Below, one piece after another: positions 3,377 through 39,600 of a DNA stretch of 64,000 bases. Source of the DNA: Cupriavidus sp. D39 (GTDB lineage: Bacteria; Pseudomonadota; Gammaproteobacteria; Burkholderiales; Burkholderiaceae); NCBI RefSeq assembly GCF_026627925.1, contig NZ_JAPNLE010000011.1, positions 1-64,000 of the forward strand. Reading direction: 5' to 3'. The notes under the pieces were generated by a model. It made no database searches, had not been told where the DNA came from, and worked only from the letters and a program-made list of their open reading frames with translations. The stretch's first letter is position 1. Each line of letters opens with the position of its first letter. The translations under genes and the position numbers were made by a program.

Positions 3377-3396
3377 GGCCGGTCGTTCTCACTCTC

Positions 3397-3933: not shown

Positions 3934-3951
3934 CCCATAACACATTCTTTT

Positions 3952-4357: not shown

Positions 4358-4393
4358 AATAGAGGATCATTTTTCGATCCTCGCTTGGCTCTC

Positions 4394-7074: not shown

Positions 7075-7082
7075 GAGCCGCC

Positions 7083-7514
7083 ATGCACAAGACATTTCGA
7101 GATAAGGACGGCAACCTCGTCGAGGTTGTATCGGTCGTGATCGCTCCGCTTGCCGGTGGCGATTCACTCGCCCTCACATGGGATGCGTTCTCAGACCAGT
7201 GTACGCCGGCGGAGGACCGCGCCTATCGGCGCGTCCAGGTGACGCTCGAAGAGCCGGCGGAGCTTTCCTTGCCGGCCTACTCGAACGGGACGCGGTGGAA
7301 CAGCTGGTTGGTTCCTGAGCTTCCTTTGTCGAGTATCCGGCAGCTTGCCCAGCTGATTCCCGACGTTGTAGAGGTCGACGACGCGGGGACGGCATTCGTG
7401 CGGGATGGCGAAGATGTCATCCCCGTGGCCACGACGGAGATTGAGGTCGGCGGCGAGAGGATCCTGACGTACTGCATCGAAGGATGGTGCTGGGAACTCG
7501 CCACAACGACCTGA
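7083..7514 (+). CDS. Hypothetical protein, 143 aa, acidic
   Basis: Starts MHKTFRDKDGNLVEVVSVV, immediately after the 6301 gene. Beta-rich and acidic, with an ELSLPAYSNGTRW segment and a Trp-rich end, EGWCWELATTT. No known domain was recognised. Position and spacing suggest cotranscription with the preceding paralogue genes. A hairpin with a T-run follows at 7544. Confidence 0.6.
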   Translation: MHKTFRDKDGNLVEVVSVVIAPLAGGDSLALTWDAFSDQCTPAEDRAYRRVQVTLEEPAELSLPAYSNGTRWNSWLVPELPLSSIRQLAQLIPDVVEVDDAGTAFVRDGEDVIPVATTEIEVGGERILTYCIEGWCWELATTT

Positions 7515-7543
7515 TGACATTTTGAGAAATATCCATTTCATTT

Positions 7544-7567
7544 GCCCCGCCTTGTGCGGGGCTTTTT
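7544..7567 (+). terminator. Rho-independent terminator or attenuator
   Basis: GCCCCGC-CTTGT-GCGGGGC pairs over seven bases and is followed by TTTTT. It lies between the 7083-7514 gene and the ATG at 7584. It may end the upstream unit or attenuate transcription into the methyltransferase-helicase gene. Confidence 0.7.
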
Positions 7568-7583
7568 CGTTTCTGGAGTCTCT

Positions 7584-10175
7584 ATGAATCATTGGTACGA
7601 ACCTTTGCGCAGCCTTGTGAGCCTCGGCTCGCAGGCTGGCAAGATCGCAAATATGGGCGAGCTGCACGCCGCCAGGCAGCAGCATCTCTCCCAATTCTTC
7701 ACCCCCGACTTGATCGCGCGCTTGATGTGGTCGGTCGTGGCCGATTGGACGCCGAATCGCAAGGTGTCGATTCTGGACAACTCGGTAGGCTCCGGCCGCC
7801 TCTTACAGTTCGCCGACCCCGCTCGACACGTGGTTTTCGGTGTTGACGTGCATGTACCAACGATCGAAGCGGTGCAGGGAACGTTCGAGGCCGCGGGTTT
7901 CGAAGGAAGCTTTCGGCACGCGGGAATGGAAGACATTCACCCAACGCGGTTCGACGTGGCCTTGATCAATCCGCCGTTCTCGATCCACCTGGAGTCTCCT
8001 CACCTGAAGCCCTTTGGGCTGACGCATTGGGGGCGGTTTGGGCCGAACACCAGTGCGGTCAGCCACGAGTATGCGCTGCAGCAGGCGCTGGATGCCGCAC
8101 AGGTTGTCGTGGCCTTGCTGCCCATGAGTTTCGTCGAACGGACCCTCGAGGCCGAGCTGCATAGCTGGACAGATCCCGCAGTCGACATGCTCACGCGGCT
8201 CGTCGGTGTATTCGAGTTGCCAGCCAATGCCTTTCGGGAGGAGGGTGCGGAAGTGCGCACAGGAATTGCCGTGTTTGGGCGGTATCGCAGCCACGGCAAG
8301 AAGGTGGTCCGGGAGAAGGTCAAAACCCTGGATTCGGCTTTGCCTACCCTGGATCTAAATTGGGACGATCGCAAGTATGGTGATCCACGGCTGAATCACC
8401 AGTTGCTGGATGAGGAAGGCCCCGCCATCACAAGGGCTGTTACCTCGCAGAAACGGGTACGCATTGGCCACGACGGCAGACGGATCGTGCTGGGCTTTGA
8501 CTGCGGCTTCACCGAAGCCATGGTCTTGAACCGGATCTTCGAACGGCGGATCGTAGCTCTGGACGGGCAACGCCTTCCCAAGGGCTTCCGGTACGCAGGG
8601 CAAGCCCGGCTCGATCTCGAAGCCTACATGGTGCAGGCTGACCCGATGGCTGCGTTCGATGGATTGCTGCGCTTGATTCGCAGCGCTGGCGGCGAGCCTG
8701 TCCTTGCAAAGGGCTTTTTGGCCCACTTCGGTGCCCGTTTGCGGCGCAGCCTGCGCCAGGCCACGCCATTGCGGCATATTGCCTGGATCGCGGGCTCGGC
8801 GTCTGCCGAGACACTGGAAGGGATAGCACGCAAGACCTTCTGCGTCGATCGCACTCGCTGGGGCAGCCCGGTGGTAAAGACGGGAGAAACGCTGACGTTT
8901 GCCCGTACAGACGGCGGTCGCTATACCTATGAGCGGGCGGGGCAGAGTTATACCGTGTCCCTGGACGAGCTGAACGCACTGGCACTGGTCGAGAACCAAT
9001 CCGAGGGGTGGGAAGCTGTGCACGAGGGGCTTCGCACTCGGTATCCGGAGATGGCGGCCGCCCTGCACGCACGGGCCCGTGCGCTGGGCATTGATCGTTG
9101 GCTGGACTGGGAATTCCAGCAGGATGACCTGGTCGAGTTGTTGCTCAAGCCTCTGGGAACGGTCGTGGCATGGGAACAGGGTTGCGGCAAGTCCCGGCTG
9201 GCGGTGGCACTGATTCTGCTGTCGGGGGTTAGGCACGGCCTGATCGTGGTCGAATCTCGGCTCATCAGCGAACTGCAAAAGGAGTTCGCCAAGCTGGATT
9301 TGCCATGCGAGGCGGTGCACATCATCAACGGACCAGAGGACCTGGGCACGTTAAGCCGCATCAACCTGATCTCCTATGAGCGCTTGCGCATGGTGGTAGA
9401 CCGACGGCAGTCTTTGCGGGCTACCTACGCGCATCGTCTACGCCGGCGGATCGGATTGCTGGTGGCGGACGAAGGCGAGCGGTTGGCCAATCCCATGAGC
9501 GACCAGAGCCGCGCCCTATGGCAACTGTCTGCCCGCCGGCGATACGTTCTCACCGGCAGCCCGATACCGAACTATCCGCGCGATGTGTTCGGCTTGATCG
9601 CGTTCACTGGTGGGGACGGTACCGCGGCGCAGCCTTACGGCTACCGGCGTGGGTATCTGCAATCCAGCTGGCTAGCGACGGTACAGCATGCGGTGCGCGG
9701 CATTGAACAGTTCCGGAACGACTTCGTCGTGCTCGAATGGGTCACCTGGCAGTTTGCGGAAAGCCTGCAGGACGGGGCGAAGCGGGAGGTGCCCAAGATC
9801 GGCAATCTGCCGCTGTATCGCCAGATGCTGGCGCCGCACGTGAAGCGCCGGCTGGTCTGCGAACCGGAAGTGGCTCGGTACATCCAGATCGACGACCCGA
9901 TATCGGAGGTTGTTGAGACGGAATGGGATCCCGGCCACCTTGCGGTGTATATGAAGGCGGCCGACGAGTTCGCTGATTGGTACCGGACCGTCCGCGGGGA
10001 TGGGAGGGCAAACAACCTGCTGACCATCCTGGCCAGGATTCGCGCCGTGCACTTCGCTGCCAACTATCCGCAACACGGCCTGGACGGCGTCGAGCGGCTT
10101 CATCAGTTGACCAGCAAGCAACGGGCGGTGATTGATCGCATGGAGGAAATCTCGGTAGCCCCCGTGGCAGACTAG
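7584..10175 (+). CDS. DNA methyltransferase-helicase fusion, C-terminally truncated
   Basis: 863 aa from MNHWYEPLR. The N-terminal third is an N6-adenine-type methyltransferase fold: SAM-binding motif I ILDNSVGSGR near residue 64 and catalytic motif IV INPPFS near residue 127. From about residue 520 a SNF2-like ATPase follows: Walker A WEQGCGKSRLA, Walker B LLVADEGERLANP and motif III YVLTGSPIPNYP. The second RecA-like lobe, with motifs V and VI, is missing; the frame ends VAPVAD just before transposon debris, so the gene appears truncated. Such methylase/helicase fusions are known from phages and conjugative elements, where roles in anti-restriction or DNA modification are assumed. The start at 7584 follows a GGAG-like site. 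Confidence 0.75.
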   Translation: MNHWYEPLRSLVSLGSQAGKIANMGELHAARQQHLSQFFTPDLIARLMWSVVADWTPNRKVSILDNSVGSGRLLQFADPARHVVFGVDVHVPTIEAVQGTFEAAGFEGSFRHAGMEDIHPTRFDVALINPPFSIHLESPHLKPFGLTHWGRFGPNTSAVSHEYALQQALDAAQVVVALLPMSFVERTLEAELHSWTDPAVDMLTRLVGVFELPANAFREEGAEVRTGIAVFGRYRSHGKKVVREKVKTLDSALPTLDLNWDDRKYGDPRLNHQLLDEEGPAITRAVTSQKRVRIGHDGRRIVLGFDCGFTEAMVLNRIFERRIVALDGQRLPKGFRYAGQARLDLEAYMVQADPMAAFDGLLRLIRSAGGEPVLAKGFLAHFGARLRRSLRQATPLRHIAWIAGSASAETLEGIARKTFCVDRTRWGSPVVKTGETLTFARTDGGRYTYERAGQSYTVSLDELNALALVENQSEGWEAVHEGLRTRYPEMAAALHARARALGIDRWLDWEFQQDDLVELLLKPLGTVVAWEQGCGKSRLAVALILLSGVRHGLIVVESRLISELQKEFAKLDLPCEAVHIINGPEDLGTLSRINLISYERLRMVVDRRQSLRATYAHRLRRRIGLLVADEGERLANPMSDQSRALWQLSARRRYVLTGSPIPNYPRDVFGLIAFTGGDGTAAQPYGYRRGYLQSSWLATVQHAVRGIEQFRNDFVVLEWVTWQFAESLQDGAKREVPKIGNLPLYRQMLAPHVKRRLVCEPEVARYIQIDDPISEVVETEWDPGHLAVYMKAADEFADWYRTVRGDGRANNLLTILARIRAVHFAANYPQHGLDGVERLHQLTSKQRAVIDRMEEISVAPVAD

Positions 10176-12242: not shown

Positions 12243-13449
12243 ACCAACGGAAGAACCTGGAAATCGCCTGGGGGCGAGTAAGGGCCAACCGGGGCAGCGG
12301 CGGTGTAGATGGAATCAGCGTGGCGGACTTCGCTGAGCAGGCGGACCAGCAACTGGACCGCCTGCAAGCGGAATTGCGCACGCGCACCTATCAACCGCAA
12401 CCGGTCAGGCAGGTCTCGATCCCGAAGATGGGTAAGCCGGGAGAGTTTCGTAAACTGGGAATTCCGTCGATCTACGATCGCGTGTGCCAGCAAGCGTTGC
12501 TCAACCGGCTGGAGCCCCTCTTCGAGCCGATATTCGACGATGCCAACTTCGGCTATCGGCGAGGGCGATCGACACACGACGCTCTGCGCAAGATCTGGAA
12601 GGAGATCGAAGGCGGTAGGGAATGGATTGTAGACGCCGACCTCAAAGATTTTTTGGGTCGGTGGATCATGACAAACTACTGTCGCTCATTGCCCGACGCA
12701 TTTCCGACGGTCGGGTGCTGGGGCTGATCAAGGCGATGCTCAAAGCTGGCAGCTTTGGCGAGGGCCGCCTCTTCCCGAGTGAGCGTGGAACGCCGCAAGG
12801 TGGGGTAGCATCACCTTTGCTAAGCAATATTCTCCTGACGCCGTTTGATCAGGAGATGCGACGCAGGGGCTATCAGCTTACCCGTTACGCGGATGATTGG
12901 GTAATCACCTGCTCATCCAAGGCGGAAGCGCATGCCGCGATTGCGGCGGCGACGAAGATCCTGACCGCACTGGGCGTACAACTGCATCCGCAGAAGACGC
13001 GAATCGTGCATGTTCGATTTGGATTCGAGTTTCTCGGCTACAAGATCAAGCGCGGGCGGCAGTTGTCGCTGCCCGCAGCCAAGATCCGCAGTGGCGTTCG
13101 ATCGGGTGCGCTGTATGCGTATCCTCGAGAGAAATCGGTTCAGCGGCTCATGGATCAGGTGCGTCGTCTCACACAGCGGTGCGTCCCGCTTCGAACGCGG
13201 GAACTGATTGATCGTCTCAATCCCATCTTGCGGGGCTGGGGGCACTACTACAAGCGCTCTCACGTCCGAAAGCTCTTCAACCGACTCGACCGATGGATCG
13301 TGCGGCGATTATGGTCGCACCGACTAAAACGCTGGCGCAATACGGGCTGGAAAGTATTGCCCACGGCTCGGCTGTACGGGGAGTTCGGGTTGGTGAACCT
13401 TGTGCAATTGATACCTTCTATTGCTTCTCAGCATGCTGCATCTTCGTGA
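12243..13449 (+). pseudogene. ltrA: Group II intron reverse transcriptase/maturase A, 5' truncated and frameshifted
   Basis: Reverse transcriptase blocks read in order: FRKLGIPSIYDRVCQQAL, FGYRRGRSTHDAL, a catalytic-core TPQGGVASPLLSN, the active site YADDW, then the maturase X-domain (LNPILRGWGHYY). The 5' part of the ORF and ribozyme domains I-III are missing because the IS end at 12242 abuts it. At the T-run 12649-12654 one T is lacking: DLKDFLGRW is read where DLKDFFGSVDHD is expected. Whether that is biological or a base-call error cannot be told. The intron is dead in any case for want of its 5' half. Confidence 0.8.
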
Positions 13450-13450
13450 A

Positions 13451-13481
13451 AGCTGCATGCCGGAAAACGGCACGTGCAGTT
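13451..13481 (+). ncRNA. Group II intron domain V (intron A)
   Basis: A 31-base hairpin with the hallmarks of domain V: catalytic triad AGC at 13451-13453, lower stem, two-base CG bulge at 13473-13474 on the 3' arm, and a GAAA-type loop at 13463-13467. It follows the stop of RT A directly and overlaps the first in-frame ATG (13457) of the next RT ORF. Confidence 0.75.
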
Positions 13482-14985
13482 TGTGCGGCGGACGGAGGCC
13501 AGCGCGCAAGCGCGCCTCCTCCGACCCAACAGCGACGAAGCCCGCGAACAAGGCCTGGAAACGGGCTGCGGAGTGGGTGGAGCCAAGGGCGGGGACCAAG
13601 GGGAACACGGGTCAGCCACACACGCGCCGGGCACAGAACCGGGCAAGCGTGTCACAGGGGTTGGAACGTGTACGGCAAGCGGCAAAGCAGCGGAAGAAGG
13701 AACGGTTTACCGCGCTTATGCACCATATCACGATCGACAGGCTTCGGGATTCGTTCTTTGCGCTTAAACGCAATGCGGCCCCCGGAGTGGACGGCGTGAC
13801 GTGGCGGTACTACGAGGCGGGACTGGAAGAACATCTCCAGCGCTTGCACGCGCAAGTACAGAGCGGAGCGTATCGGGCGCTGCCCGTTCGGCGGCAGTAC
13901 ATACCGAAGCCGGATGGCAAGCAGCGTCCGTTGGGGATTGCGGCGCTGGAGGATAAGATTGTCCAGCGCGCGGTGGTTGACGTGCTCAACGGGATATACG
14001 AGACAGATTTCCTCGGTTTCTCGTACGGGTTCCGGCCCGGGCGTAGCCAGCACGATGCGCTGGACGCGCTGGCAACGGCGATCACCAGCACCCCGGTGAA
14101 CTGGATTTTAGACGCCGACATTCGGAGCTTCTTCGACTCGGTCAGCCAGGATTGGCTGATCCGATTCATGGAGCACCGGATTGGCGATCCACGCATCATC
14201 CGCCTTGTGCGCAAGTGGCTCAAGGCGGGCGTCCTGGAGGACGGAGAATGGAGCGTCAGTGAAGAAGGCACGCCACAGGGGCTGTGATTTCGCCCCTGCT
14301 CGCGAACGTCTATCTGCACTACGTCTTCGATCTCTGGGCTAACCGGTGGCGACGGCGCGAAGCCAAGGGCAACGTCATCATCTCGCGGTACGCGGATGAT
14401 GTGGTGGTCGGCTTTGAGCACGAAGCTGACGCGCGGCACTTCTGGGATGCGATGCGACTGAGGTTGGAGGAGTTCTCGCTGGTGCTTCACCCGGACAAGA
14501 CGCGGCTGCTTGAGTTTGGCCGCAATGCAGCGGGCAGGCGCAAGCGGCATGGTCTTGGCCGACCGGAGACCTTCTCGTTCCTGGGCCTCGTCTATATCTG
14601 TGGCAAATCCCGTCGCGGTGCCTTCCAGCTTCAGCGGAAGACCCGTGGCGACCGCATGCAGGCGAAACTCAGGCAAATTAAGGAGGAGTTACGGCGGCGC
14701 ATGCATGAACCAATACCCATCCAAGGGCACTGGCTCAGGCAAGTGGTACGCGGCTATTTTGCGTACCACGCGGTTCCTACGAACTCGCGGGCGCTCGTGG
14801 CATTTCGTTATCACGTTACCAATCTCTGGCGGCGCTCGCTGCGGCGGCGCAGCCAGAAAGATGCCATGACGTGGGCGCGGATGACCCGGCTCGCCGATGA
14901 CTGGCTCCCGAGACCTCGAATTCTTCATCCGTGGCCCAGCGACAGATTCGCCGTCAAACACCCAAGGTGGGAGCCCGGTGCCTGA
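13457..14985 (+). pseudogene. ltrA: Group II intron reverse transcriptase/maturase B, frameshifted
   Basis: The second intron-encoded protein follows in tandem. It has PLGIAALEDKIVQRAVV, GFSYGFRPGRSQHDAL, SRYADDVVVGF and a maturase X region (WLRQVVRGYFAYHAVPTNS), ending HPRWEPGA. At the G-run 14278-14281 one G is missing: TPQGL-stop is read where TPQGAVISPLL is expected. The ATG at 13457 lies within the domain V hairpin of intron A; a later ATG at 13717 (MHHITIDRL) is the more natural RT start. About 500 residues if corrected. Confidence 0.8.
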
Positions 14986-19654: not shown

Positions 19655-19876
19655 ATGCAAGAGCTTTCAATGGAGCAGTTGGATTCGATCGCTGGCGGCG
19701 GCTTGGCCTTTGGCGGCAGCAATTGGTACATCCTGGGAGGAGCAGGAGTTGGGGCAGTTGGTGGTGGGGTCATCGGTGGAGTGCTTGGTGGCCCGCTGGG
19801 TGCGATGAGTGGAGCAGGCAGTGGGGCTATGCTTGGCGCGCTCGTAGGAGGGCTTATTGGCGGCAGCGGCAGTTAA
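19655..19876 (+). CDS. Double-glycine bacteriocin/microcin precursor
   Basis: 73 aa from MQELSMEQLDSIAGG. The first 15 residues are a classical double-glycine leader (ELxxxxLDxIxGG) for a C39 peptidase. Cleavage after GG would give a core of about 58 residues starting GLAFGGSNWYIL. The core is very Gly/Ala rich, with repeated GxxxG spacing (VGGGVIGGVLGG, MLGALVGGLIGG), as in pore-forming class IIb bacteriocins and glycine-zipper microcins. The start is set by GAAAGGAGAT six bases upstream; an in-frame GTG at 19652 is also possible. The exporter genes lie 640 bases downstream. No immunity gene identified. Confidence 0.8.
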   Translation: MQELSMEQLDSIAGGGLAFGGSNWYILGGAGVGAVGGGVIGGVLGGPLGAMSGAGSGAMLGALVGGLIGGSGS

Positions 19877-19908
19877 CCACCTCGAGCAACCGGCCGGACG
19901 GCGGCCGA

Positions 19909-19939
19909 GGGGCGGAGGCCCCCGCCGCCGCCCCTTTTT
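19909..19939 (+). terminator. Rho-independent terminator after the precursor gene
   Basis: GGGGCGG (19909-19915) pairs with CCGCCCC (19928-19934), with further GC pairing inside, and is followed by TTTTT. It would separate the highly expressed precursor transcript from the export operon. Confidence 0.75.
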
Positions 19940-20156
19940 GTGCGCTCAAATCTATACGTGCAGAACTGCCCCATATGCTCAGCCTTGCTTGAGCGCGAAG
20001 AAGCGCCGAGTCGGATAAGTGGGGCGTTGGTGCATGGATAGGCCAATGAAAGGTTGGGGTAAATATGGTAACGATCTAACAATTGGTGGTGTCCCGTTGA
20101 AGGTTTGGGATGGCTGAAGTCTGCCTAGGCTAGGCAGAATATAACTCGAGTGTCTG

Positions 20157-20278
20157 GTGTGGCGTTCTGTCAACGAGTACGTCGCTCACCACAACACCAA
20201 CCCGAAGCCGTTCATCTGGACCAAGAGCGCTCGCGACACATCCTACAAACGGTCATTGGCGCCAACCGCCGCTTAAAT
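20157..20278 (+). pseudogene. IS630-family transposase C-terminal fragment
   Basis: NEYVAHHNTNPKPFIWTKSA is the typical C-terminal block of IS630 transposases, followed by a frameshifted tail to the stop near 20276. Bases 20279-20519 hold no supported gene; a frame from GTG 20375 with one hydrophobic helix is noted under rejected items. Confidence 0.6.
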
Positions 20279-20519
20279 GGAACACTGCACTAGCCCTACG
20301 GCTTGGGCCTGAGCGGCTGGGCAGCGCCCAGCCTCAACAGGCTCGGATTCCGCCCGCAAAGCCGCAGTGTCTGAGTGACGCCGTTAACTTGGTTGACATG
20401 TTGGGCGGGCATCGTGTCCGCATGGACGGTTGCAGGTTACGTTGTCAATTTAATCGGGCAAAGCGTGCGCACCGTCCGGGTGAAACGGCACCGGCGCAGC
20501 CTCGCACGGCATAAAATCA

Positions 20520-21895
20520 ATGCGAATGGCGAATTCTTTCATCAGGCATATCTGCTTTGGCATGTGGATATGTTCCAGCTTCTGCGCGTTGCCCGTTACC
20601 GGCTTCTGCGAGGAGGCGCGTTCCTCTGGCATGTATCAGATTGTTCAGTCTGCTGTAGAGCAAGATTCGCGCTTGCAGCAGGCACGCAGCCAGATTGGCG
20701 CGGCCGACGCACTAATCGATGCCGCGAAGGCCAGCTATTTGCCAACGCTATCACTGCAAGCGAATGCAGATCGCAATGACCGCTGGGGGCGCGTTACGGA
20801 AATATCGCTTGGTGAAGATCGCGGTCTGACCAGCTCGCTGCAAATCCGCTGGAATCTCTTTCGCAGCGGCGCCGATCTTTCTCACGTGGCCGAAGCAAAG
20901 GAAGACTTCGAGGTCGCGCGAGCCGAATTACGTCGGACCCGCCTCGAAGTCTTGCGGGATTTGATCCTGGCGATGTTAGAGTATCGCAAGTATGCCGCGT
21001 TGATCCTCAGTGCTACCCAGTACGGTGATCAGACACGGGAATTTGCCAAACACTTGGACCGCTCCAGGCAACTCGGGCAGACCTCCGCCCTGGAAATGGA
21101 ACGTGCATTGGCTCGCAATCAAGACGGGATGCAAAGTCTCCAGCGATTTCTGGCACAGCGTGATGCGGCGGCAACTGCTTTACTGAATAGGTTCGATCTC
21201 CCCATTGGAGGGATATTGCCCCCGTTGACGGCGGTGTCCGCGCTATCAGCGATACAACTGTCCGCGGGGCTCGAAGATTCAGAGATTTGCAATCCGGATC
21301 GATTGGCCGGTATGCCTGCTATTGTGCAGCGTGAAGCTGAGCTGGCAGTGAGGCAGCATCAGGTTAGCGCAGAGCGCGCACAATATGGCCCGCGGGTGGA
21401 TTTGCAGCTGATGCGGAATTCCGGACGTCATGCTTATGATGGCCTGACCGGTGGATTGTCCGAAAAAGAATGGAAATAACACTGACGATTCCGCTGACTG
21501 ATGGCGGGTATACCAGTGCAAAGGTGCGGAAAGCGACTGCGCTATCAGAGCAGGCTCAGGCCGCGCTTGAGACTGCACGCACTGACGCGATCGTTAATCA
21601 GCAAAAAAACTGTGCGCAGTTGCGTGCTGCCCGATTATCTGCCGCCAGTGCAGAAGACGCGTGGCACCGGATGGAAAAAGTGATGACGGGCCTCGAACGG
21701 GAACGTCAGATGGGGTTTAACAATACGTTCGACATATTGGATGCTTCACGCGACCGGTTTTCGGCAGCACGCGAGTTCATCGAGCAGACCTATGACGTCC
21801 GTCGACTGTTGATTGGCCTCCGCCTGGCCCAATCCAGTGGGAATAATGACGGGCCATACGCGGACCTGATCGGTGCGATTCTGAACGGTCTATGA
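20520..21895 (+). CDS. tolC: TolC-family outer-membrane efflux protein (one frameshift)
   Basis: Starts MRMANSFIRHICFG with a signal peptide ending about VTGFCEEA. Long alpha-helical OEP repeats follow (AVEQDSRLQQARSQIGAADA, YLPTLSLQANADR), typical of TolC channels. Frame one stops at 21479 after SEKEWK; frame two goes on ITLTIPLTDGGYTSAKVRKA to the stop at 21895. One A is missing in the run 21474-21476. Corrected length is about 458 aa, normal for the family. It is the outer-membrane exit of the microcin exporter and overlaps the acyltransferase gene by four bases. Confidence 0.75.
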
Positions 21896-22830
21896 TGGTA
21901 AAAAGGATCCGCGGTCGTCTGTTTCGCTGGGCTGGAAAACATTTCCTTCGGCGAAGGAGCAACGTGCTTCGTTGGGCGTTCGCGCTGGCCACATGGTTAC
22001 CCGATACCGCTTCGACACTACGGGTCGCAGCGCATATGCAGGACAGACTATCGTTAGGTGCGGATGATGCATTGATGCGAGCCCGCAAACATGCCGCGAT
22101 GTTCCGGGTCTGCAGGCTGTTGCCCCATCTGTATGCGTCAATGCCAGATGACGCTGTTCAGCAAATTGTTGCGCGATATCAATTCGATATTCGGGGCGCA
22201 CAAAGTGGCTCCGCGCCATCATGCGGAGAGCTAGTGGCGTTCATGCACACGTGGGACTACTGGTATGGTGTGATGGCGCTGATGATCCGCGCTGGCCGTG
22301 CGCGTGCAGGGTGCGTGGTGCGCTTGCAACGCGATGCAAACGACCTCGCGGTTGCGCAGCGCATGGAGCGCGCCGGATTTTCGCTTATATTCGTCGACGG
22401 TAACAGTCATTCCGCGCTTCGGCAAGTTGTACGGACGCTTCGCGGCGGCGGGATTGTGTTTCTATTTTCGGATTTTTATCCACACTCAGACCGCGCAATA
22501 TCGGTTCATTGGTTTGGTCAATGTGGGCGCTTACCGTCCGGTTTGATCGACATCGCGGCATTGGCCAATGTGCCTGTATCGATTGCGGAAACACATATCG
22601 ATGACGTGTACCGGGAGTGGATACAGTTGACCCCCGCATTCTCCGACGTCCCTCAGCCGTCTCAGTTGGCCATGCAACAACTGGCGACAATGTTCGAGCA
22701 ACGAATCAGAACAAGCCCAGAACAGTGGCGCTGCTGGGAACATTTCGAAACATATTTTTACCGGCCGGCATCACAGATCCAGCGTGAAGTGGTCCGTCTG
22801 ATGAGGAAACGCAGTGAGGAGCGGGCGTGA
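21892..22830 (+). CDS. LpxL/HtrB-like acyltransferase in the microcin operon
   Basis: 312 aa from MMVKRIRGRLFRW. The fold pattern follows late lipid A acyltransferases: a basic N-terminus, a His motif region (AFMHTWDYWYGVMAL), GGGIVFLFSDFYP, a WFG...LPSGLIDIAALANVPV segment, and the C-terminal RIRTSPEQWRCWEHFETYF corresponding to PEQxxWxHRRFK. The usual HxxxxD/E pair is not exact: after the His the acid is at +3 (HTWD), and +5 is Trp. It lacks a clear N-terminal transmembrane anchor. It overlaps tolC (ATGA) and the adaptor gene, so it is coupled to export. It may acylate the peptide, a lipid or the cell surface; all are inference. Confidence 0.7.
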   Translation: MMVKRIRGRLFRWAGKHFLRRRSNVLRWAFALATWLPDTASTLRVAAHMQDRLSLGADDALMRARKHAAMFRVCRLLPHLYASMPDDAVQQIVARYQFDIRGAQSGSAPSCGELVAFMHTWDYWYGVMALMIRAGRARAGCVVRLQRDANDLAVAQRMERAGFSLIFVDGNSHSALRQVVRTLRGGGIVFLFSDFYPHSDRAISVHWFGQCGRLPSGLIDIAALANVPVSIAETHIDDVYREWIQLTPAFSDVPQPSQLAMQQLATMFEQRIRTSPEQWRCWEHFETYFYRPASQIQREVVRLMRKRSEERA

Positions 22831-24110
22831 CGATGTTCTCGCGGTTTTGTCACCGACGACAGCCGACTCAGGTTCCAGTCGACCCTAGTGGGTGGTGGGG
22901 TAGTACGGGCGTTCACTTGGCGGTTGGACGACGTGGCTTGATACTGGCCTTCTTTGGCCTGTTTCTGTGTGTAGCTGCTGTGCTTGTCTTTGGCCAATAC
23001 ATGCGAAAGGTGTCCATCCAGGGAGTGCTTGAGCCGCAGGGGGGACAGGTGCTTCTGATTTCTCCGGAAAACGGAACGCTGCGCCAGGTTTTCGTTCGCC
23101 CAGGAGATCAGGTTCACGCCGGCGATGTCGTAGCAGAGGTGGCGGTGTTGCGCAAGGTAGGGAGCGATGACAACGGGGGCGGGGAAACGGTAGCTCTGCG
23201 CGACAGCATCGACAGATTTCGTGCGACCCGCAACTTGACCGAACGGGACGGCCTATTGCTGGCCGCGGCAACGACCGACGAGTTGCGACGGTTAATGGAC
23301 GAGGCCGCGCAGGCAAAGCAGGAACTGGATTCCGATCTTCAGGCCGAACAGGTTTTCAGCGGCGAACTGGCAACACTGAAGCTTCTGGTCGCCGAAGGGA
23401 TTCGTTCGACACGGGAATTGACGGACGTCGAAATTAAGTATTTGCATATAAAGAGCGAAAGTGCGCGTGTGCGCCAGAATATTGCACGGATCGAAGGAAA
23501 AGAAGCTGATATCAAGAAGCAGCTTCAGCGTGAAAAGAGCTCGCTGAGCCGGCAGAATAACGAAACAGAGGCGCGTATCAATCAGCTGAATATCGAGCTA
23601 GATCGTGCATTAAAGAGCGAGTCGTTCCGGATCACCGCAACACACGACGGAATAATCGACTCGACCCTTAGTCAGACCGGAAAATCCATTCAGAGTGGCG
23701 AAGTTATAGCAACCATCAGTGACCCGCATGTTCCTTTGCAGGCACTAATGTTCGTTCGTCCCTCTGACATCGGTTTCGTGCGGCCCAGTGACGAAGTGTT
23801 GCTGCAAATCGACGCCTTTCCGACCCAGCAGTTTGGCAGTATAGCCGGAAAAATCATAAGTATCTCTTCTACCTCCGTGATCAACAGCCAGTTCAAGACG
23901 TTGGCCAGTCTGCGGGATGGCGAGCGTTCATATATGGCAGTGGTGGCTTTACAGACGAGCAGCGTGACAGGCTACGGCAAAGGCTGGAGACTGCAATCCG
24001 GCATGACCTGCCATGGTTACGTAGCCTTGGAGCGACAGTCATTGTTCCGTTGGCTGTTTAATCCGGTGTTTGCCGCACTTGGCCGCAACCCATATTTTTT
24101 GACCGCATAA
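22827..24110 (+). CDS. HlyD-family periplasmic adaptor for bacteriocin export
   Basis: 427 aa from GTG 22827 (ATG at 22833 possible). A cytoplasmic N-tail is followed by one transmembrane helix (LILAFFGLFLCVAAVLVF, residues about 37-54). Then come a first biotinyl-lipoyl half (GTLRQVFVRPGDQVHAGDVV), a coiled-coil hairpin (residues about 125-260) and a second lipoyl half (ITATHDGIIDS). The order is that of membrane-fusion proteins of type I bacteriocin exporters. It would bridge the C39 ABC transporter and the TolC-like channel. Frame intact. Confidence 0.85.
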   Translation: MTMFSRFCHRRQPTQVPVDPSGWWGSTGVHLAVGRRGLILAFFGLFLCVAAVLVFGQYMRKVSIQGVLEPQGGQVLLISPENGTLRQVFVRPGDQVHAGDVVAEVAVLRKVGSDDNGGGETVALRDSIDRFRATRNLTERDGLLLAAATTDELRRLMDEAAQAKQELDSDLQAEQVFSGELATLKLLVAEGIRSTRELTDVEIKYLHIKSESARVRQNIARIEGKEADIKKQLQREKSSLSRQNNETEARINQLNIELDRALKSESFRITATHDGIIDSTLSQTGKSIQSGEVIATISDPHVPLQALMFVRPSDIGFVRPSDEVLLQIDAFPTQQFGSIAGKIISISSTSVINSQFKTLASLRDGERSYMAVVALQTSSVTGYGKGWRLQSGMTCHGYVALERQSLFRWLFNPVFAALGRNPYFLTA

Positions 24111-24120
24111 TAGATGTGAC

Positions 24121-26247
24121 ATGGTAATCTGGCGAAATCTAAGAGATGGGTTCCAATCCTTCTTCCGGAAGAGAGTGCCTGTAGTGAGGCAAATGGAATT
24201 GAGTGACTGTGGCATATCGTGCTTGTGTGCGATTGCACAATTCCATGGTGCCGGTGTCAGCTTGTCCGGATTGAAGATCCGTTATGGGACGTCGCTACAG
24301 GGTGCTACGCTCTTGCAGGTATTATGTATGGCACGCGATCTCGGCTACAACGGGAGGGGAATTTCCTTCTCAATGAGCCATGTGCAGGATATAGTGCTGC
24401 CCGCGATTCTGCACTGGAATACGAATCATCTTGTTGTTCTCGAACGCGTAACAAAATCTTTTATCGAGATCATGGACCCAGCCGTCGGGCGGCGTATCTA
24501 CACCCATCATGAATTCGCGCTGTCCGCGACGGGCTATGCCCTCGAATTGTCGATCGACAAACTATTTCGTCATCAGGGTACAAGGCGATTGCTTCGCTTC
24601 TCCGATTTTATTGCTCGCAATCGCAACACGTGGTCATTCCTGCGTGCGAGCCTGCTTCTGACGTTGATTATTGAGGCGGCGGCCATTGCCAGCCCCTTCT
24701 TTGTCCAACTGGTCATCGACGAAGCTGTGACAAAGAACGATCTGGATATCCTGAACCTACTCGTTCTGGTGTTTGGCGCCATTGCCATATGGGATGTGGC
24801 GGCAAGATTTCTGCGTGGTTATCTGCATATGGATCTGGCAGCCCGTTTGCATAACGATGCAAAAATTGGGCTCGTTTCACGCTTGTTATCGTTGCCGCTT
24901 TCGTGGTTTGATGTTCGCGGCGTCAGTCAGATATATCAACGGTTGCGACAAATAGATATGCTGCAAACGTCGCTATCTGATGCGACATTTTCAGCATTAC
25001 TGGATGGTGTCTTTTCCCTGGTTGCTCTGGCCATCATGTTTACCATCAGCCCGGTGCTGGCGGTACTGTCGACATTGGTTCTTGCTAGCTACATTGCAGC
25101 GCGCCAATTCATGCTGTATTCCGTTCGAAAGAGAATGGGAATCCAACTGGCCGCGGTGGCAAAGGCGGATGGCAATCTGTTGCGCTTGATTGACGATATT
25201 CAGGCGATCAAACTGACAACCGCCGAAGCGGGAAAACTGAACCGATGGGCGAACATGCAGCTGGATGCTTCCCGGGAAAGGATCTGGCTTCAGATCATCG
25301 GCTACCGATTTGCTCTGTTTAGCGAGACATTACGTCATGCCGAAAGGCTCGGCGTGATTTACCTTGGCGCGGCCTTCGCCTTGAAAGGTAATATTAGCGT
25401 TGGGATGGTGTTTGCCTATTTGATGTTTAGGGATCAATTTCTCAATAAATCCATTGGTTGCGTTCAGACTGTCTATGAACTGAAGCAATCGGAGGGAATG
25501 CTCGATGAACTACGCGATGTGATCGATGCGCCTCTAGAGGTCGCGCGGACTGGATTTTCCGCGGGGGCCGCCCGATTGATCCCGGTGGGGAACTGCGACT
25601 CGAAGATGTGTGCTTCAGGTACGCAGCTTTTGTCAAGCCAATCCTCTACGATGTAAATCTGGTTATTTCGGCTGGAGAAAAAATTGCGATCACTGGGGTA
25701 TCGGGTTCTGGAAAATCCACTCTCCTTAAAATATTTACGAGCCTCTATCAGCCGACCTCTGGAGTTTTTCGAGTCGACGGTGTTGATATCAGAAGCATTT
25801 CGCTGATGGACTATCGCAGAAAGATCGCGGTGCTCGACTCAAAGCCTTCGTTTCACAACGGAAGCATCCTCGAAAACATTTTTTGAGAGTGAGGAGCACA
25901 ATGCGACGTGGGCGATCGAATGCGCCCGTAACGCTGGCTTGCATGACGACATCCTGGGTCAACCGGGCGGCTACGCGACGCTTGTGAGCGCTCAGGGCAA
26001 CAGCCTGTCGTCAGGACAACAGCAGCGGCTGTTGCTCGCACGGGCGCTTTATACAAGACCGCGGTTTCTTATCCTGGATGAACCTACAGCGCATCTGGAC
26101 GCGCTGACAGAGCGGGCGGTCGTGGAACGTCTTCTAGAACTGGAGGCGACCGTGATCGTTGTCACGCACAACCCGACGGTACTGGCCTTGTTTCCCTCGC
26201 TGCTCAAGGTCGATCAAGGCACCGTGACTCGGCTAAGGCGTTGTTGA
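24121..26247 (+). CDS. C39-peptidase ABC exporter (PCAT), two frameshifts
   Basis: Starts MVIWRNLRDGF. The N-terminal C39 domain has Gln24, Cys30 (MELSDCGISC), His103 (HWNTNHLVVLE) and Asp119 (IMDPAVG), a full catalytic set for cutting after GG. Transmembrane segments follow (about residues 160-400), then the ABC domain: Walker A GVSGSGKST, signature SLSSGQQQR, Walker B FLILDEPTAHLD. The frame shifts at C/G-runs near 25581-25590 (one base short) and at the T-run 25879-25884. Corrected length about 709 aa, normal for PCATs. It cleaves the leader of the 19655 precursor and pumps the core. Confidence 0.8.
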
Positions 26248-27239: not shown

Positions 27240-27886
27240 TTGAAGCCTGCAAGCGTGTCAACGAAACAGGAACGAATAGCCATGCTGGCGAGGAACAATC
27301 CAGAGATGGCCCTCACCTCACTGAGCCACTATATCGACTATGAGCGGGTGAAGTACGCCTACGACCGTACGCGTAAGGATGGTGCGGTCGGGGTAGACGG
27401 TCAGACTGGGGAGGACTATGCGGCCAACCTGGAGCAGAACCTCTGTGGTCTGATCGACCGGCTCAAGTCGGGCCGATACCGCGCTCTGCCGGTTCGTCGT
27501 CAATTCATAGAAAAGGCGGACGGTGGTCTCCGCGGGCTCGGTATTCCCTAAGGTGGCGCAGCGCGCCATCGTTATGCTGCTGGAGCCGATTTACGAACAG
27601 GATTTTCAGGACTGCTCGTTCGGCTTCCGGCGGGCTCGCAGTGCGCACCGGGCACTGCGGGCTGTATGGAAGGGGATTACGCAGCGGGGTGGTCGGTGGG
27701 TGCTGGATGTCGATGTTCGGAAATATTTTGACAGCATTGACCAAGCCAAACTGAGAGAGTTCCTAGCCAGAAGAGTCACAGATGGAGTAGTACGAAGACT
27801 GATCGACAAGTGGCTGAAAGCGGGAGTGCTGGAGGATGGGCAGCTGTTTTATCCCGATGCCGGTACCCCTCAAGGCGGGGTGGTTG
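27240..27886 (+). pseudogene. ltrA: Group II intron reverse transcriptase C, 5' fragment
   Basis: From TTG 27240 (KPASVSTKQERIAMLARN) through KDGAVGVDGQTGEDYA, FGFRRARSAHRALRA, DVDVRKYFDSID and TPQGGVV. About 11 bases are missing after GLGIP at 27550 (the usual T-x-E-D before KVAQRA), shifting the frame. It ends where recombinase sequence begins, before the YADD active site. Confidence 0.75.
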
Positions 27887-28140
27887 CCGCTTACAACGTT
27901 GCATACTTTTCACTCCGTCGTCTGAATCATTCGAGTTTTCGCTGTCAAAAGCCCCAGGCTGTGGGTCAACCCTGAACACAATGACGATTTCATCCTTGTG
28001 GATTTCGACGCGCTTGACCAGACCCAATACGATCCTGCGCTTTGTCTCAAGATCAATCGTGTCCAGTTTTTCGGTGACGGCGCCTGCAAATTCCTCGATC
28101 CGATTGATGACCAGAAACAGCTCGCTTTGCACCGCACTCG
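27886..28140 (-). pseudogene. Serine recombinase C-terminal fragment
   Basis: On the minus strand, IEEFAGAVTEKLDTIDLETK, then RRIVLGLVKRVEIHKDEIVIVFRV, is the C-terminal segment of large serine recombinases, where a coiled region precedes a KRVEI...VFRV strand. Only about 80 residues remain, embedded in the group II intron. Confidence 0.6.
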
Positions 28141-32009: not shown

Positions 32010-34627
32010 ATGTTGCTAGTTGATATTAAGTCATTGGTTGCGCGCCTCAACTCGTACTGTAAAAACGCACTGGAGAACGCTGCTGGGCTATGCCTGGAGC
32101 GAGGACACTGGGAAATCACGGTGGAGCATTTTGCTTACTCGCTGCTTCAGGAGTCTCGGAGTGAGATGAACCTGCTACTCCCCCGCGTGGGCCTCGATGT
32201 CAGTGGACTTCTGGGCGCGCTATCCGTGGACATCGGCAAGATCGAGAGCCAACGGACTGCCAGTCTGGGCTTCTCGCCGCTGATCTTCGATCTGCTTCAG
32301 GATGCATGGTTAATCGCTTCGGTGGAACTCGGACGTCACGCCATTCACTCGGGTGCCATCTTGCTGGCATTGGCCCAACGGGGACGCAATTTCGCACAAG
32401 GGGAGTGGCCAGACCGCCTCCGGCTGCTTGGGCGAGATCATACTGCGGCTTCTCTGCGGGAAGTGTCAGGCCAGTCTTGCGAGGCCGAAGCGATGCCCTC
32501 GCCCGGCGGGAGGGGCGTGCTACCCACCGTGGCGGAGCAAGAGGGGGCTCGGCCTTGGCGCGCTACTGCATCAATTTCACTGAGCGGGCTATTGCCGGCG
32601 CCATCGATCCGGTGATCGGCCGCGACCGCGAGATTCGCCAGGTAATCGAGATCCTGTCCCGGCGGCGCAAGAACAACCCTATCGTGGTAGGCGAGCCCGG
32701 AGTGGGTAAGACGGCGGTGGTGGAAGGGCTGGCGCTGAGGATTTCGGCTGGCGACGTCCCTCCGCCTCTACGTGGCGCTGTTCTGCTTGGTCTGGACGTG
32801 GGCGCTCTGGAGGCCGGAGCGGGAGTCCGCGGTGAATTTGAGAATCGGTTGCGTCAGGTTGTGCGCGAGATTGAAGCGCTAACTGAGCCGGCTGTGCTGT
32901 TCATCGACGAGGCCCATGTCATTGTACGGCCACCGTCGGCGGGGGGCAATGATTTTGCAAACCTGCTCAAGCCCGCGTTGGCCAACGGCACACTTCGAGC
33001 AGTCGCAGCAACTACTTGGTCCGAATACAAGAAGTATTTCGAGAAAGACTTGGCGCTCGCCCGGCGCTTCCAAGTCGTTGCGGTGGGAGAACCCAGCATT
33101 GCCCAAGCGAAGGTGATCCTGCGTGGTCTGCGCGAGCGCTATGAGGCGGACCACGGGGTGTTTGTGTCGGACGCAGGGTTGGAGGCAGCCGTGGATCTGG
33201 CCGATCGCTATATCCACGGCCGCCAATTGCCGGATAAAGCCTTGGATTTGTTCGACACCGCGTGCGCGCAGGTGGCAATCGGCCTATCCTCCACGCCGGA
33301 AGAAATCGAGACGGTTGAGAACCAGATCGAGGCATTGGAAGTTCAGCGGCAGGGCTTAGAACGAGAGTTGCGTCATGGCCGTAGGACAGAGAACGAACTC
33401 GCATCGATGGACAATGCGCTCACCGACTGGCGCGCCCAGAGAGAGGAACTCATCGGCCGATGGCGGAAGGAGGAGGAAATCGTACGAGAAGTGATCGAGC
33501 TACGTACCAAATTGGCGTCCGCCCCCCCCGAAGTGTTGGCAGAGATTGGTATGCAACTCGTAGCGGCCGAGGTACGGTTGGCAGACATCCAGGGCGACGC
33601 ACCGATGGTATGTTCTGAGGTTGGGCCTGATGTGGTGGCCAAGGTCGTGTCTCGCTGGACCGGAATTCCCTTGGGCAAGGTACTGCGAGACCAGACAGAG
33701 TCAATCCTGGCATTAGCGGACAGCTTGCGACGACGGGTGAGGGGCCAGGACCATGCTCTGACGCTCGTTGCAGAAACTGTGCGGAGCGCAGCTGCCGGAC
33801 TGAAGGATCCCCGCCAACCACGAGGCGTGTTCCTTTTGGTCGGACCTTCAGGCACGGGCAAGACAGAGACTGCTCTAGCTCTAGCCGATGTCCTGTTCGG
33901 CGACGAACGCTCGGCAATCATCCTCAACATGACCGAGTATCGCGAAGCCCACAGCGTTAGCCGGCTGATCGGGTCGCCTCCTGGCTATGTTGGCTATGGC
34001 GAAGGCGGCGTGCTAACGGAAGCGGTACGGCAACGTCCCTATTCTGTCATCCTGCTTGACGAGGTCGAGAAGGCGCACCTGGACGTCATGAATCTCTTTT
34101 ATCAGGTGTTCGACAAGGGCATGCTGTCCGATGGCGAGGGCAAGCTGATTGATTTTTCCCAGACTGTGATCCTGATGACATCCAATCTGGCATCGGAGGC
34201 AATTGCCGATGGGATGGCGTCTCGGGGAGAAACTATGGCCTCCTTGGAAGATCGCATTCGCCCTTTACTCAACGCACATTTCAAGCCGGCACTGCTGGCG
34301 CGAATGACAGTAATCCCGTACCTGGCATTGTCACCGGAGGTAGTGCGGGAGGTCATCGAGATGAAATTAGCGCGGCTTGCCGACCGGATGCGATGCAATC
34401 ACGGTATGGAAATGCGCTACTCCACGGAGGTGATTGAGACGATCGCTAGTCGTTGCAGTGCAAATGAGGCCGGAGCGCGTTACGCCGATATGCTCATTCG
34501 CACTGAGGTCGTCTCACTTCTGTCCGAGGGGATCCTGCAGCGCTTGGTGGATCAGACGGCTCTGCCCGCTGCGGTTACTTTGGAAGTGGATGAGACGGAC
34601 GGTTTCTCCTGCCGCTTCGAAGGATGA
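32010..34627 (+). CDS. tssH: T6SS AAA+ disassembly ATPase TssH/ClpV (one frameshift)
   Basis: The N-terminal Clp-N domain (LVARLNSYCKNALENAAGLC, VEHFAYSLLQ) reads to residue about 180. Then the G-run 32543-32547 lacks one G, and the second frame carries on SALARYCINFTERA. AAA1: GEPGVGKTA and VLFIDEAH. A coiled middle domain follows at about residues 410-530. AAA2: GPSGTGKTE, SPPGYVGYGEGG and VILLDEVEKAH. About 873 aa corrected, normal for ClpV. It recycles contracted TssBC sheath. The ATG at 32010 lacks a strong Shine-Dalgarno. Overlaps tssK (ATGA). Confidence 0.9.
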
Positions 34628-36035
34628 GTGCCATGGAAACCACTAAGCCCTTGCTGTGGTACGAAGGCCTGTTTTTGGCGCAACAGCATCTGCAATGGAC
34701 TGACGCGTACCACACTTCACGGCTGCAGGCGGCGCTGCGCGCAGGGCCCCACAGCTGGGGTGTGCGGAAGCTGCAACTGTCCGAGGCGGCCCTGAGAAAC
34801 TTGACTTTCCACGTGGAGGCTGCGCAGTTGGTGTTCCGCGACGGCACGCAGGCCGACCATCCTGGTAACGCAGTAGTGCTGCCGCGCTCGTTCAAGAACG
34901 TTTGGCGGCCGGGTGACAAGCCGCTGCGAGTGTTTGCGGGGGTGCGCCGGTTGCAGAGAGCGGGAGGGAATGTGGTGCAGGCGGAAGGGACCACGCCTCC
35001 TGCGAGTGTCGACGCTCGCTACGTAGTGCTGGGGGAAGAAGCACTGCCAGATCTCCAGGGAAATAGTGCCGTGGTGACGGCACGCTGTCTCACCTTAGTG
35101 GTGCAACTGTTCTGGGAAAGCGAGTTGGGAAGCGTACCAGAGTACGAATGCATTCCTCTGGCGGAGGTGGATGGAGTTGGCGGCGTCCCCGCGCTTGTGC
35201 CTGGCTATGTTCCACCTTCCATGGAGTTAGCGGCCGCGCCACAGCTGGTGCGGACGCTAGGGTGGTTGCACGACGATCTGGCCGGCCGCGTACGCAGCAT
35301 GGATGGCTTTCGCAATCCACGTCACCTTCACGCGCTGGAATCGGAGCGCGGCATGCTGATTGGCATGTTGGCCTATTTGGTGCTAAACCGGGCCTTGCCA
35401 GGTTTGCGACACTTACGGGAAGAGGGCCATCTGCATCCCCTGCACGCCTACGCTTTTCTGCGCCAGTTGGCGGGGAGTTGCGCACATTGTCCGCTAGTGC
35501 TGATGCCGGCAGTTTTGAGGACGAGGTGCTCGCGGCAGCCTACGACCATCAGGCTATCGGCCCCCGCTTCGCGGCGCTTGCGAGCCTCATAGTTACCCTG
35601 CTTGATGAGATTTCGCTGGGTGCAAATCGGATTGCTCGGTTCGAGGGGGACGGCAAACTTTTCCGCGCGCAGCTGCCGCCGGATTTCTTCGGTCCAGGTC
35701 GACGCTACTACTTGGTTGTGCGTACCGACGGCGACAGCCCGCTTGTGGCAGAGCGCTTCCTTGCGGGGGCAAAGCTCGCGGTGCCGACGCGTGTGGCCGT
35801 GCTGGCGGCCCAAGCGCTGCCAGGTGTGCCTCTTGCATGGTTTCCCGAGCCGCCGCACGGGGCGTCGCGCCACGGAAATCCGATCTATTTTGGGGTGGAT
35901 AGACAGGCGGCAGAATGGCTGTCAATCGAGGAGGGGCGGATGGCTGCGCTATTTCTTGCCGATGCGACGCCTTGTTCAGCCTTCGAGCTCATCTCTCTTG
36001 GAGAAGGACATGCGTCTATCCAACTGTTTCCTTGA
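34624..36035 (+). CDS. tssK: T6SS baseplate protein TssK (one frameshift)
   Basis: MSAMETTKPLLWYEGLFLAQ, then QHLQWTDAYH, is the TssK N-terminus. VVLPRSFKNVWRPGDKPLRV and LVVQLFWESELGSVPEYECI follow. At the G-run 35472-35475 one G is lacking; the corrected frame reads LAGELRTLSASADAGSFED and ends with FFGPGRRYYLVVRTDGDSP and GHASIQLFP. About 470 aa corrected. TssK links the baseplate wedge to the TssLM membrane complex. The end overlaps tssL by 26 bases. Confidence 0.9.
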
Positions 36036-36684: not shown

Positions 36685-36691
36685 GCGTGTG

Positions 36692-39600
36692 ATGCTGAAA
36701 AAATTGATCAACATTCTGCTGGCTGTCGGCCTGTTTTTACTAGTGGTCGTAGTTTGCGTTGCTATTGCTCTTTACTTCGAATGGCCTTGGTGGTCCCTCG
36801 TTGGCCTCTTGGCCGTCGGATGGATGGCGGTCCTGACATTTCGTTTCCTACGGCAACGGTTGGTCGTGTGGAGACTGCGCCGTGGCAAAAAGATTGCAAG
36901 AGCGAGGCTGCGGCAGGGTGTGGCAGACGTGATTCAGCGCAGGCGATGGCGACATTGGCTGCGACGGCTGGATGGCCCGTCAAAAGCTTGGTGGAGAGGG
37001 GAGCCACCGAAATCCGCGCCATGGTTCTTGATGGTCGGACCAGCCGGAGCAGGAAAGACTGCCTTACTGGAATCTGTGCGTGCAACCCGCATTCTGCATG
37101 GCTTTGCGCCCGAAAACTACGGGACGCTGCGACTTGAGTGGTGGCGCTGCGAGGGCGCAGTAGTAGTGGTGGCATCGGGCAGCAATGGCGGCGCCTTGCC
37201 TACCGGCGTCGAAGTGACGCACCTCGCGCGACTGCTGACGATGAGACGGGTGCGGCCGGCACTGGACGGGGCTCTTCTTCTACTGGACGGCGACGAAATG
37301 ATGCCGCCCGAAATGCGGGCGGCGGCGCCAGTTTCTCCTGACGGGCCAGCGACGCTCGATTTGTTTCACCGACTCGGGGTTGCAGTTTCCGTGCGTTTTC
37401 CGGTGTACGTCGTGGCTCCGAAAGCGGACGCCATCCTAGGTTTCACTGAATGGTCAAGCGCCCTGCCGTCTGCCTTACGTGAACAGGCCCTTGGCTGGTT
37501 GATGGATAGTGGAGCCGGAAGGCTTGGAGAGGAAGCCGTAGGGCAATTGACGGAGCGGGTCCGCGCCTCGACGCTGGCACTGCTTCGGAAGCACGGACGA
37601 ATTAGCTCAGAGCAAATTGCGTTCGAGCGCGCACTAGCTGCTACCGCCACGCGGCTGCTCGAGAGAACGGAGTCATTCGTTATGCGAGAGCTTGCTGCGG
37701 ATGAAGCGGGCGGGTTCCTGCGAGGCGTCTTTCTTTACAGTTGCATGCCGAAGGGGAAAGGAGCGTTCTCAGCCGAATTGATGCGCCAGACAGTACTAAG
37801 GGATATCAGTTTAGCGCGCTCCATTCCATCAGCCTCCTTCTTGGGGCGGCATGCCGATCGTCTGAGCTTCATGGTTTGGTGTGCGAGTTGGGGTTTGGCC
37901 TCGGTATTGATGATAGCAGCCTTCCTGTCCGCCTTTAGTACTCTCGAGACTCTGCGTGATCGCTTGCCGATCGGGGTCAAGTCGGGTAACGGTCCGGTCC
38001 CTGATCTGGCCGAACTGTCGCGCTATGGAAACGTGCTTCAGTTCATTCGTGCGGGAGGCATTGGGCGCGGAGGTGTGAACTTGATATTCAGTGGTCGGAT
38101 CGGCGACGTGGAGCGGCGTATCGAGCAGGATTTCACCCTGCGATTCCGCCAGTTTCTGTATCACCATATAGACAGCGAGTTGGAGCGGCAGTTGTCGCGC
38201 AATGCGTCGGATGCCCAGATCAGTAACCATGTTGAGTTTATTGTGCGGCGCATCGCTATACTCGATGCGCGCATCGAAGGCCGAGCAGGAAGTATCGTGA
38301 CCTTGCCGGCCCTGGGCGTGAAGTCCGTGGTTCAATTGCTGGCAGTCCAGAGTGCCACTGCCATCCCACCGGAATATGCTGTGGCATTCGACGAGATGTA
38401 CCGCCACTACGTGGTAGCTGAAACAGACGTGCAGTTGTTGCGACGAGAACGAGACCTATTGCGGCGCTGGCTGGTGACCTTCGCACTCAGACCGGACAAT
38501 CTCCGATCGGTAGTTGCGTGGGCCAACGACCAATTGCAAATTGCCCCCATATATTTGAGACAATTCTGGGGGAGGGGAGATGCACGATCTGCTTGTCGAG
38601 CCTGCGTTCACGAAGCAGGGCTCTCGGCTCATAGCGGAACTGATGAACGACGTTGAACGAGCACTGCCCGAAACGCAGCGAGGGCGCTTTCTCGAGGTAC
38701 GCGATGAGTTTGATCGATGGTATCTGCGCGAGCGGTTAGGGGCATGGTATGTCGCCATGAGCCAGTTTAAAAAGGGCGCTGTGACACTCAAGTCATTCGG
38801 CGACTGGCAGTTGGCACTGAGTAGACTGCCAACACCGGATGGCCCCCATTTCGCGTTCCTCCGATTGATCGAGGAGGAACTGTCGGACTACAAGGAGGAT
38901 AGCCGCTATGTTCCGGCGCCCGCATGGTTGATGTTGGTACGCACTTTGAACGGCGTGCTCGTCTCTGCGGGCGGCGGAGAGGTTGACGGTTCGAATCTGG
39001 TTCACTTCGGGAGACACCTATTGACGGCAACGGCCGCCTCGGGAACCAGAGGGGCTGTTGCCACGATGCGCGGACAGCGTGCTGCGGTCGAACAAGCCCA
39101 GCGTTTTTTGAAGAGCATGGCCGACGTGTGGGGTGAAGTGTCTTCCGGGCCAGCACAAGGGTATCGTGTTGCGGCGGACCTAGCGCTCCAAGGCCGCGAC
39201 CCTGGCATAAAGAACGGCCAATTGCAGGAGGCCCTTAGGTCTCTCGCTGCGCTTCGCAGCCTGCTCGGCGGCGGAAAGGGCCGAGAGGCGACTGCCGTGT
39301 GGCAACTTATGGAGGGGACGGTCGACCTCATCCTTCATTACGCCGTACGAGAGGCCGAGTGTGAATTACAGAGACAGTGGCAGGAGCGGATTGTGGCCGC
39401 CATTCAGGACTCCAAAGGACATCGCGGTTTGCTTGAGATTCTCAATGGAGACGGTGGCAATGGCGCTCTTCCAAAGTTCATAAAGGAGGTGGCGGAGCCC
39501 TTCGTGAGTCGGCAGGAGGGAAGCGGCTACACGGGGGTGTACGTACGTGGCCTCACTCCCCAGTTGAGCAAAGAGTTCTTTGTCCTCCTGAACACGACTG

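Follow-up and report, generated by a model that had tools for sequence, protein, structure and literature searches.

We examined a peptide-export locus of Cupriavidus sp. D39 in which a gene for a protein resembling the lipid A acyltransferases LpxL and HtrB lies among the export genes. The DNA studied, called the window here, is the first 64 kb of a 210-kb contig (NZ_JAPNLE010000011.1) within the 7.74-Mb genome of 11 contigs. The + strand of the window carries genes for a 73-residue peptide with a double-glycine (GG) leader, for TolC, for the LpxL-like protein, for HlyD and for a C39 peptidase-ATP-binding cassette transporter (C39-ABC) (Table 1). Pfam matches at the locus are OEP, Lip_A_acyltrans, HlyD_3, Peptidase_C39, ABC_membrane and ABC_tran. 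Present together, the C39-ABC, HlyD and TolC genes make up an export set of the class II microcin type, with tolC and the ABC gene split in the assembly.

The export gene cluster

The LpxL-like gene overlaps tolC on one side and hlyD on the other by four bases each, and 10 bases separate hlyD from the ABC gene. This packing had been described in a first-pass annotation made from the sequence, and the open reading frames (ORFs) and Pfam matches bear it out, overlaps included. That description was right as to genes and overlaps but had overlooked the split frames, a hairpin and an insertion sequence remnant. As assembled, tolC occupies two frames and the ABC gene three; each piece matches the expected part of its own family in Pfam.

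Table 1. Features of the export locus, in window coordinates.
Feature	Position	Strand	Basis
Precursor peptide, 73 residues, GG leader (LDSIAGG), glycine-rich core	19655..19876	+	ORF, motif
GC-rich hairpin then five T, terminator-like, after peptide gene	19908..19939	+	folding
IS630-family transposase gene remnant, between peptide and tolC	about 20170..20276	+	DNA matches, frame
tolC, first piece (PF02321)	20520..21479	+	ORF, Pfam
tolC, second piece, other frame (PF02321)	21470..21895	+	ORF, Pfam
LpxL-like acyltransferase-fold protein, 312 residues, MHTWDYW replacing HX4D/E	21892..22830	+	ORF, Pfam, homologues, structure model
HlyD-type periplasmic adaptor, 427 residues, open	22827..24110	+	ORF, Pfam, homologues
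C39 peptidase-ABC transporter, first piece (C39 and membrane domains)	24121..25656	+	ORF, Pfam
ABC ATPase domain, second piece, other frame	25608..25886	+	ORF, Pfam
ABC ATPase domain, third piece, other frame	25939..26247	+	ORF, Pfam

The peptide gene is preceded by AAGGAGA before its start codon. Its core is 41% Gly with 14 overlapping GxxxG motifs, and the peptide ends in GGSGS, polar but uncharged. PF10439 scores 20.5 bits, under its 27.1-bit cut-off. Among 2080 small ORFs from 404 kb of the genome, one matches the leader motif, the pattern having been written after the peptide was seen. A 73-residue precursor with GG leader and glycine-zipper core, as first annotated, is confirmed by ORF, leader motif and GxxxG count. 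The further suggestion of an operon running as a single unit from the peptide onward is not supported, because a gap of 643 bases with the hairpin, its five T and the IS630 remnant intervenes before tolC. The hairpin folds at -37.4 kcal/mol in a 69-nt piece (z -1.85; 9 of 200 shuffles equally good) and was not listed by a scan for the terminator consensus. The IS630 remnant has DNA matches of 85.7-88.8% in three Cupriavidus plasmids, where it is unannotated, and shorter matches fall under features named IS630 family transposase; Pfam found nothing on its 42-residue piece.

An altered LpxL-like protein in two branches

PF03279 matches the window acyltransferase at 28.9 bits against a cut-off of 22.3, over residues 115-279; two relatives from Burkholderia, described below, gave 19.1 bits and no match. 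The usual catalytic pair of LpxL/HtrB acyltransferases is HX4D/E, and the title of PDB entry 5knk names E127A a catalytic substitution. The catalytic histidine is kept in both branches of the family considered here. The acid position is taken by tryptophan in 12 of 12 members of the window branch (MHTWDYW) and by methionine in all 16 members from Burkholderia (LHFGNLM). Four paralogs in the same genome (L001-L004) carry HX4E; a fifth, PlsC-like match (L006) was left out of this count. Across the 10 sequences of an alignment spanning both branches (A3), the histidine is invariant, as are 35 other positions. The C-terminal region reads PEQW..WE.F, against a QY/YY-W type end in the paralogs. The nearest structural relatives are LpxL/LpxM and the PatA-type fold, and a sequence search of solved structures found none at E <= 0.1. 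Judged by its sequence, the protein is an altered acyltransferase-fold relative in which one member of the customary LpxL/HtrB catalytic pair is absent.

Searched against 5.8 billion proteins, the acyltransferase matched 12 at E <= 1e-5, the protein itself and eleven at 57-62% identity. The corresponding HlyD search, among the best 7998 candidates scored, returned ten at E <= 1e-40, the query's own and nine at 61-65% identity. The sources of both sets of relatives are labelled ena and lgn, and for six of them the longest contig has exactly the same size in the two lists (lengths 37480, 9888, 8927, 6750, 6153 and 6009). Read as the same contigs, these suggest that the acyltransferase travels with HlyD relatives at about 60% identity. 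No close relative of the acyltransferase was found in contigs of named genomes, by single protein or by alignment. In a genome search its own genome was the only one with a match among 399 of the order (at most five candidates scored per genome) and among 60 of the genus (all candidates scored). The HlyD alignment likewise found only this genome among 369 of the class (at most four candidates scored). Plasmids in PLSDB held no relative of the window acyltransferase, and no acyltransferase is annotated in the C39-gene neighborhoods of two PLSDB plasmid matches (H1 and H4), the gene tables there being incomplete; a third match (H7) carries no annotation. PADLOC found nothing. A viral-contig stretch (L021 10001-10234) matches acyltransferase residues 118-185 at 30% over 68 residues.

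A more distant branch was found in Burkholderia. In the single-protein search 13 genomes besides the window's own, of 299 in the family, gave weak matches (26-31% identity, E 1.6e-6 to 5.4e-6), and these places adjoin C39-ABC matches from a separate search. With alignment A3 the count rose to 17 of 299, the window's own genome and 16 of Burkholderia; these family searches scored no more than seven candidates per genome, so 17 may be an undercount. The genus is named from protein matches to B. arboris, B. cenocepacia (97%) and B. stagnalis (86.5%), and the family is accordingly taken to be Burkholderiaceae. All 16 loci have, on one strand and in this order, genes for C39-ABC, the acyltransferase-like protein (about 25% identical to the window protein) and HlyD, with two GG-leader peptides upstream within 1.5 kb. 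The acyltransferase-like frames are open. Their products are 71-97% identical to the first of five, and the peptides, 60-100% identical to the two references used, are about equally conserved. In three loci with listed ORFs an oppositely directed gene precedes the peptides and another gene follows hlyD; these were typed in one locus, as OEP and OmpW respectively. In both gene orders, that of the window and that of Burkholderia, the acyltransferase gene is directly upstream of hlyD.

The conserved pair of short GG-leader peptides at these loci (L058-L070, L097, L150, L151) would be compatible with a role as signals or at the surface as well.

Elsewhere, 2 of 259 genomes in a phylum sample match the extended family, the window's own and one other (G717), where an LpxL-like gene with HX4P for HX4D/E follows a gene for an AMP-binding enzyme (L149 5230-7606, + strand). 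The locus with the ABC protein most like that of the window (33%) is L071 (G169:C3:490000-505000, about 1755-9806, - strand). It encodes a GG-leader glycine-zipper peptide, a TraB-type protein, C39-ABC, a 2-oxoglutarate (2OG) oxygenase, a DUF6817-GNAT protein, HlyD and TolC, with the 2OG-oxygenase and the DUF6817-GNAT protein between ABC and hlyD. Its peptide matches MccV below the cut-off and Gly-zipper above it. This cluster possibly makes another enzyme-tailored export peptide.

Candidate roles of the LpxL-like protein

The acyltransferase gene lies directly upstream of hlyD across proteins of about 25% identity, differing exporters and differing gene orders, and it should therefore serve the exported peptide or the exporting cell. 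The best reading is that the altered protein acts on the exported peptide; action on the producer's membrane is less likely. Taking gene content, recurrent linkage, fold and loss of the usual acid as observed, we infer the peptide as substrate and catalysis as the mode. The locus would then be a C39/HlyD/TolC exporter for a GG-leader peptide with its own altered LpxL/PatA-type protein, working by peptide acylation or acyl presentation, a proposal to which we give somewhat less than an even chance. Acylation or presentation is ranked first because tailoring-type enzymes (the 2OG-oxygenase and DUF6817-GNAT protein of L071) fill the same slot elsewhere. In such a scheme the peptide would be made with its GG leader; the acyltransferase-fold protein in the inner membrane would, via its conserved histidine, acylate the peptide or present an acyl chain; the C39 domain would cleave off the leader; and HlyD and TolC would carry the product out. 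The first-pass proposal that the acyltransferase has a job tied to the peptide gains from the recurrent linkage to exporters and HlyD; it is weakened by the lost acid, and a shared transcription unit with the window peptide did not emerge. A broader version seems doubtful though not far-fetched: that the acid-less exporter-linked LpxL-like proteins form a separate family acylating GG-leader peptides before C39 cleavage. The resulting lipidated peptides would be a class of Gram-negative export products, Burkholderia providing examples.

Several observations weigh against a peptide-directed role. None of the 28 members known from both branches has the acid of HX4D/E. The structure model is weak (mean predicted local distance difference test score, pLDDT, 66), and plain Foldseek of the model gave no PDB match at E <= 0.001. 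The hairpin and IS630 remnant set the window peptide apart from tolC; 218 candidates drawn from the 5.8 billion proteins include no homologue of this peptide at E <= 0.01, and the Burkholderia peptides are unlike it. C39 places number 75 in 54 of the 299 family genomes, one of them in the window; the acyltransferase gene is present at 16 of the remaining 74, and 58 showed no relative, DNA having been read around 55 of the 74 with some stretches stopping at contig ends (in one subset of the DNA read, the gene was present at 1 of 40 places). Export as such therefore does not need the acyltransferase. Nor is the extended family confined to exporters, because no C39-ABC was found in the 8.9 kb read around the G717 protein, which scores as high by single sequence. 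We know of no acylated product.

LpxL/PatA-type structural relatives act on membrane glycolipids, so the protein might instead remodel the producer's lipid A or phospholipid and confer resistance to an exported membrane-active peptide. In the three Burkholderia loci with listed ORFs, the interval from the peptides to hlyD showed no other immunity candidate, though the ORF picker also missed the acyltransferase there and no dedicated immunity-gene search was made. The Cdz glycine-zipper peptides damage target membranes (PMC5380434). Self-protection by this route nevertheless seems rather unlikely, since the catalytic pair lacks its usual acid and the OmpW-like gene after hlyD in the one typed locus could equally protect. 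Loss of the acid in all 28 members, while the four paralogs keep it, fits a former acyltransferase that binds lipid or peptide and assists export or assembly alongside HlyD, as does the position directly 5' of hlyD in both arrangements. The invariant histidine and 35 further positions of the 10 A3 sequences suggest, though no more than that, a kept active site, and we consider a purely non-catalytic protein unlikely.

Mobile-element remnants surround the gene, and at the majority of C39 places no gene of this kind was seen, as would be expected of a hitchhiker with no tie to peptide or exporter. The first-pass annotation had named a lack of linkage in related genomes as grounds for this view. 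Linkage was found: it persists with HlyD relatives at about 60% identity, and all 16 of the distant Burkholderia loci show it in another gene order, which argues that the acyltransferase gene is not a chance insertion; a mere neighbor is very improbable.

The peptide-directed reading also supposes an exporter intact in the strain, which we infer. The frame breaks are probably errors of assembly, with the exporter genes whole in the living strain. Cells need rpsC, yet the sole rpsC of the assembly (one Ribosomal_S3_C match) is likewise split, and the assembly therefore holds small errors and the exporter is perhaps whole. A class-I synthetase match in the same assembly is divided between two frames, and the dnaE-type match on the chromosome falls within a 672-residue frame, against 1121 and 1053 residues for two others. 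The acyltransferase and hlyD frames at the locus are open. On the other side, the L2, L3 and L4 genes nearby are whole, so such errors are not everywhere, and genuine mobile-element remnants in the neighborhood make true decay possible too. ORFs of the chromosome are generally short: their mean is 278 residues and the coding fraction 0.58, against 412 and 389 residues and 0.77 and 0.88 in two relatives, on which the underlying codon model was trained. These statistics fit assembly errors as well as decay. A tblastn count of frame changes was set aside as mostly antisense frames. The genome assembly contains small errors that mimic pseudogenes, in rpsC and probably in the class-I synthetase and dnaE, and we rejected the view of the exporter as a decayed relic on the agreement of these genes.

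Reverse transcriptase ORFs flank the region, at 13421-14985 (split over two frames) and 27523-27975. A type VI secretion cluster (34624-35592 and 36689-38656) has a short TssK-type ORF, spanning model positions 1-259 of 429, and a 655-residue IcmF/TssM-like ORF, by decay or assembly error.

Comparison with known systems

To our knowledge, export of GG-leader peptides by C39-ABC, HlyD and TolC does not need an enzyme of membrane-lipid type. We recognized no paper on an LpxL-like gene with a C39 exporter, which is weak evidence given poor coverage of subscription papers and preprints. LpxL/LpxM (HtrB/MsbB) and PatA resemble the locus protein in fold, in Pfam family PF03279 and in the conserved histidine; the locus protein differs by its replaced HX4D/E acid, its linkage to peptide export and PEQW..WE.F near the C-terminus. 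Toxin-activating lysine-acyltransferases have a fold different from the LpxL type. A gene like theirs is reported near microcins in a Serratia survey (PMC13101503). Lipidated ribosomally synthesized and post-translationally modified peptides such as the nostolysamides resemble the proposal made here in that a ribosomal peptide bears an acyl group, but these are lanthipeptides with a lanthipeptide synthetase, and no such synthetase was seen among the genes typed at the loci here. Class II microcins of the microcin V type have the same GG leader, C39-ABC, HlyD and TolC; the locus differs from them by the LpxL-like gene among its export genes.

Cdz is the nearest described system (PMC5380434). 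It consists of small glycine-zipper proteins with GG-type leaders, encoded beside type I secretion genes; the proteins are retained on the surface and kill on contact. Cdz-like peptides are 60-151 residues long, carry a glycine zipper and have a leader with G[G/A/S] at its end, and such systems are reported from Burkholderia cepacia and others (PMC5380434). The window peptide has these features of size, leader and zipper (73 residues, GG, 14 GxxxG). Cdz differs in having its own small membrane immunity protein, CdzI, and in peptides that its authors consider likely unmodified; the word 'acyltransferase' is absent from the main text of that report (PMC5380434). The loci described here add a family of LpxL-like proteins whose active site is altered and whose genes accompany C39 peptide exporters in two distant branches, the exporters and gene orders being different in each. 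Such a recurring link suggests a step, so far undescribed, by which these peptides are made or exported or by which the cell survives them, and the Burkholderia loci, with their open acyltransferase-like frames, make the question directly testable.
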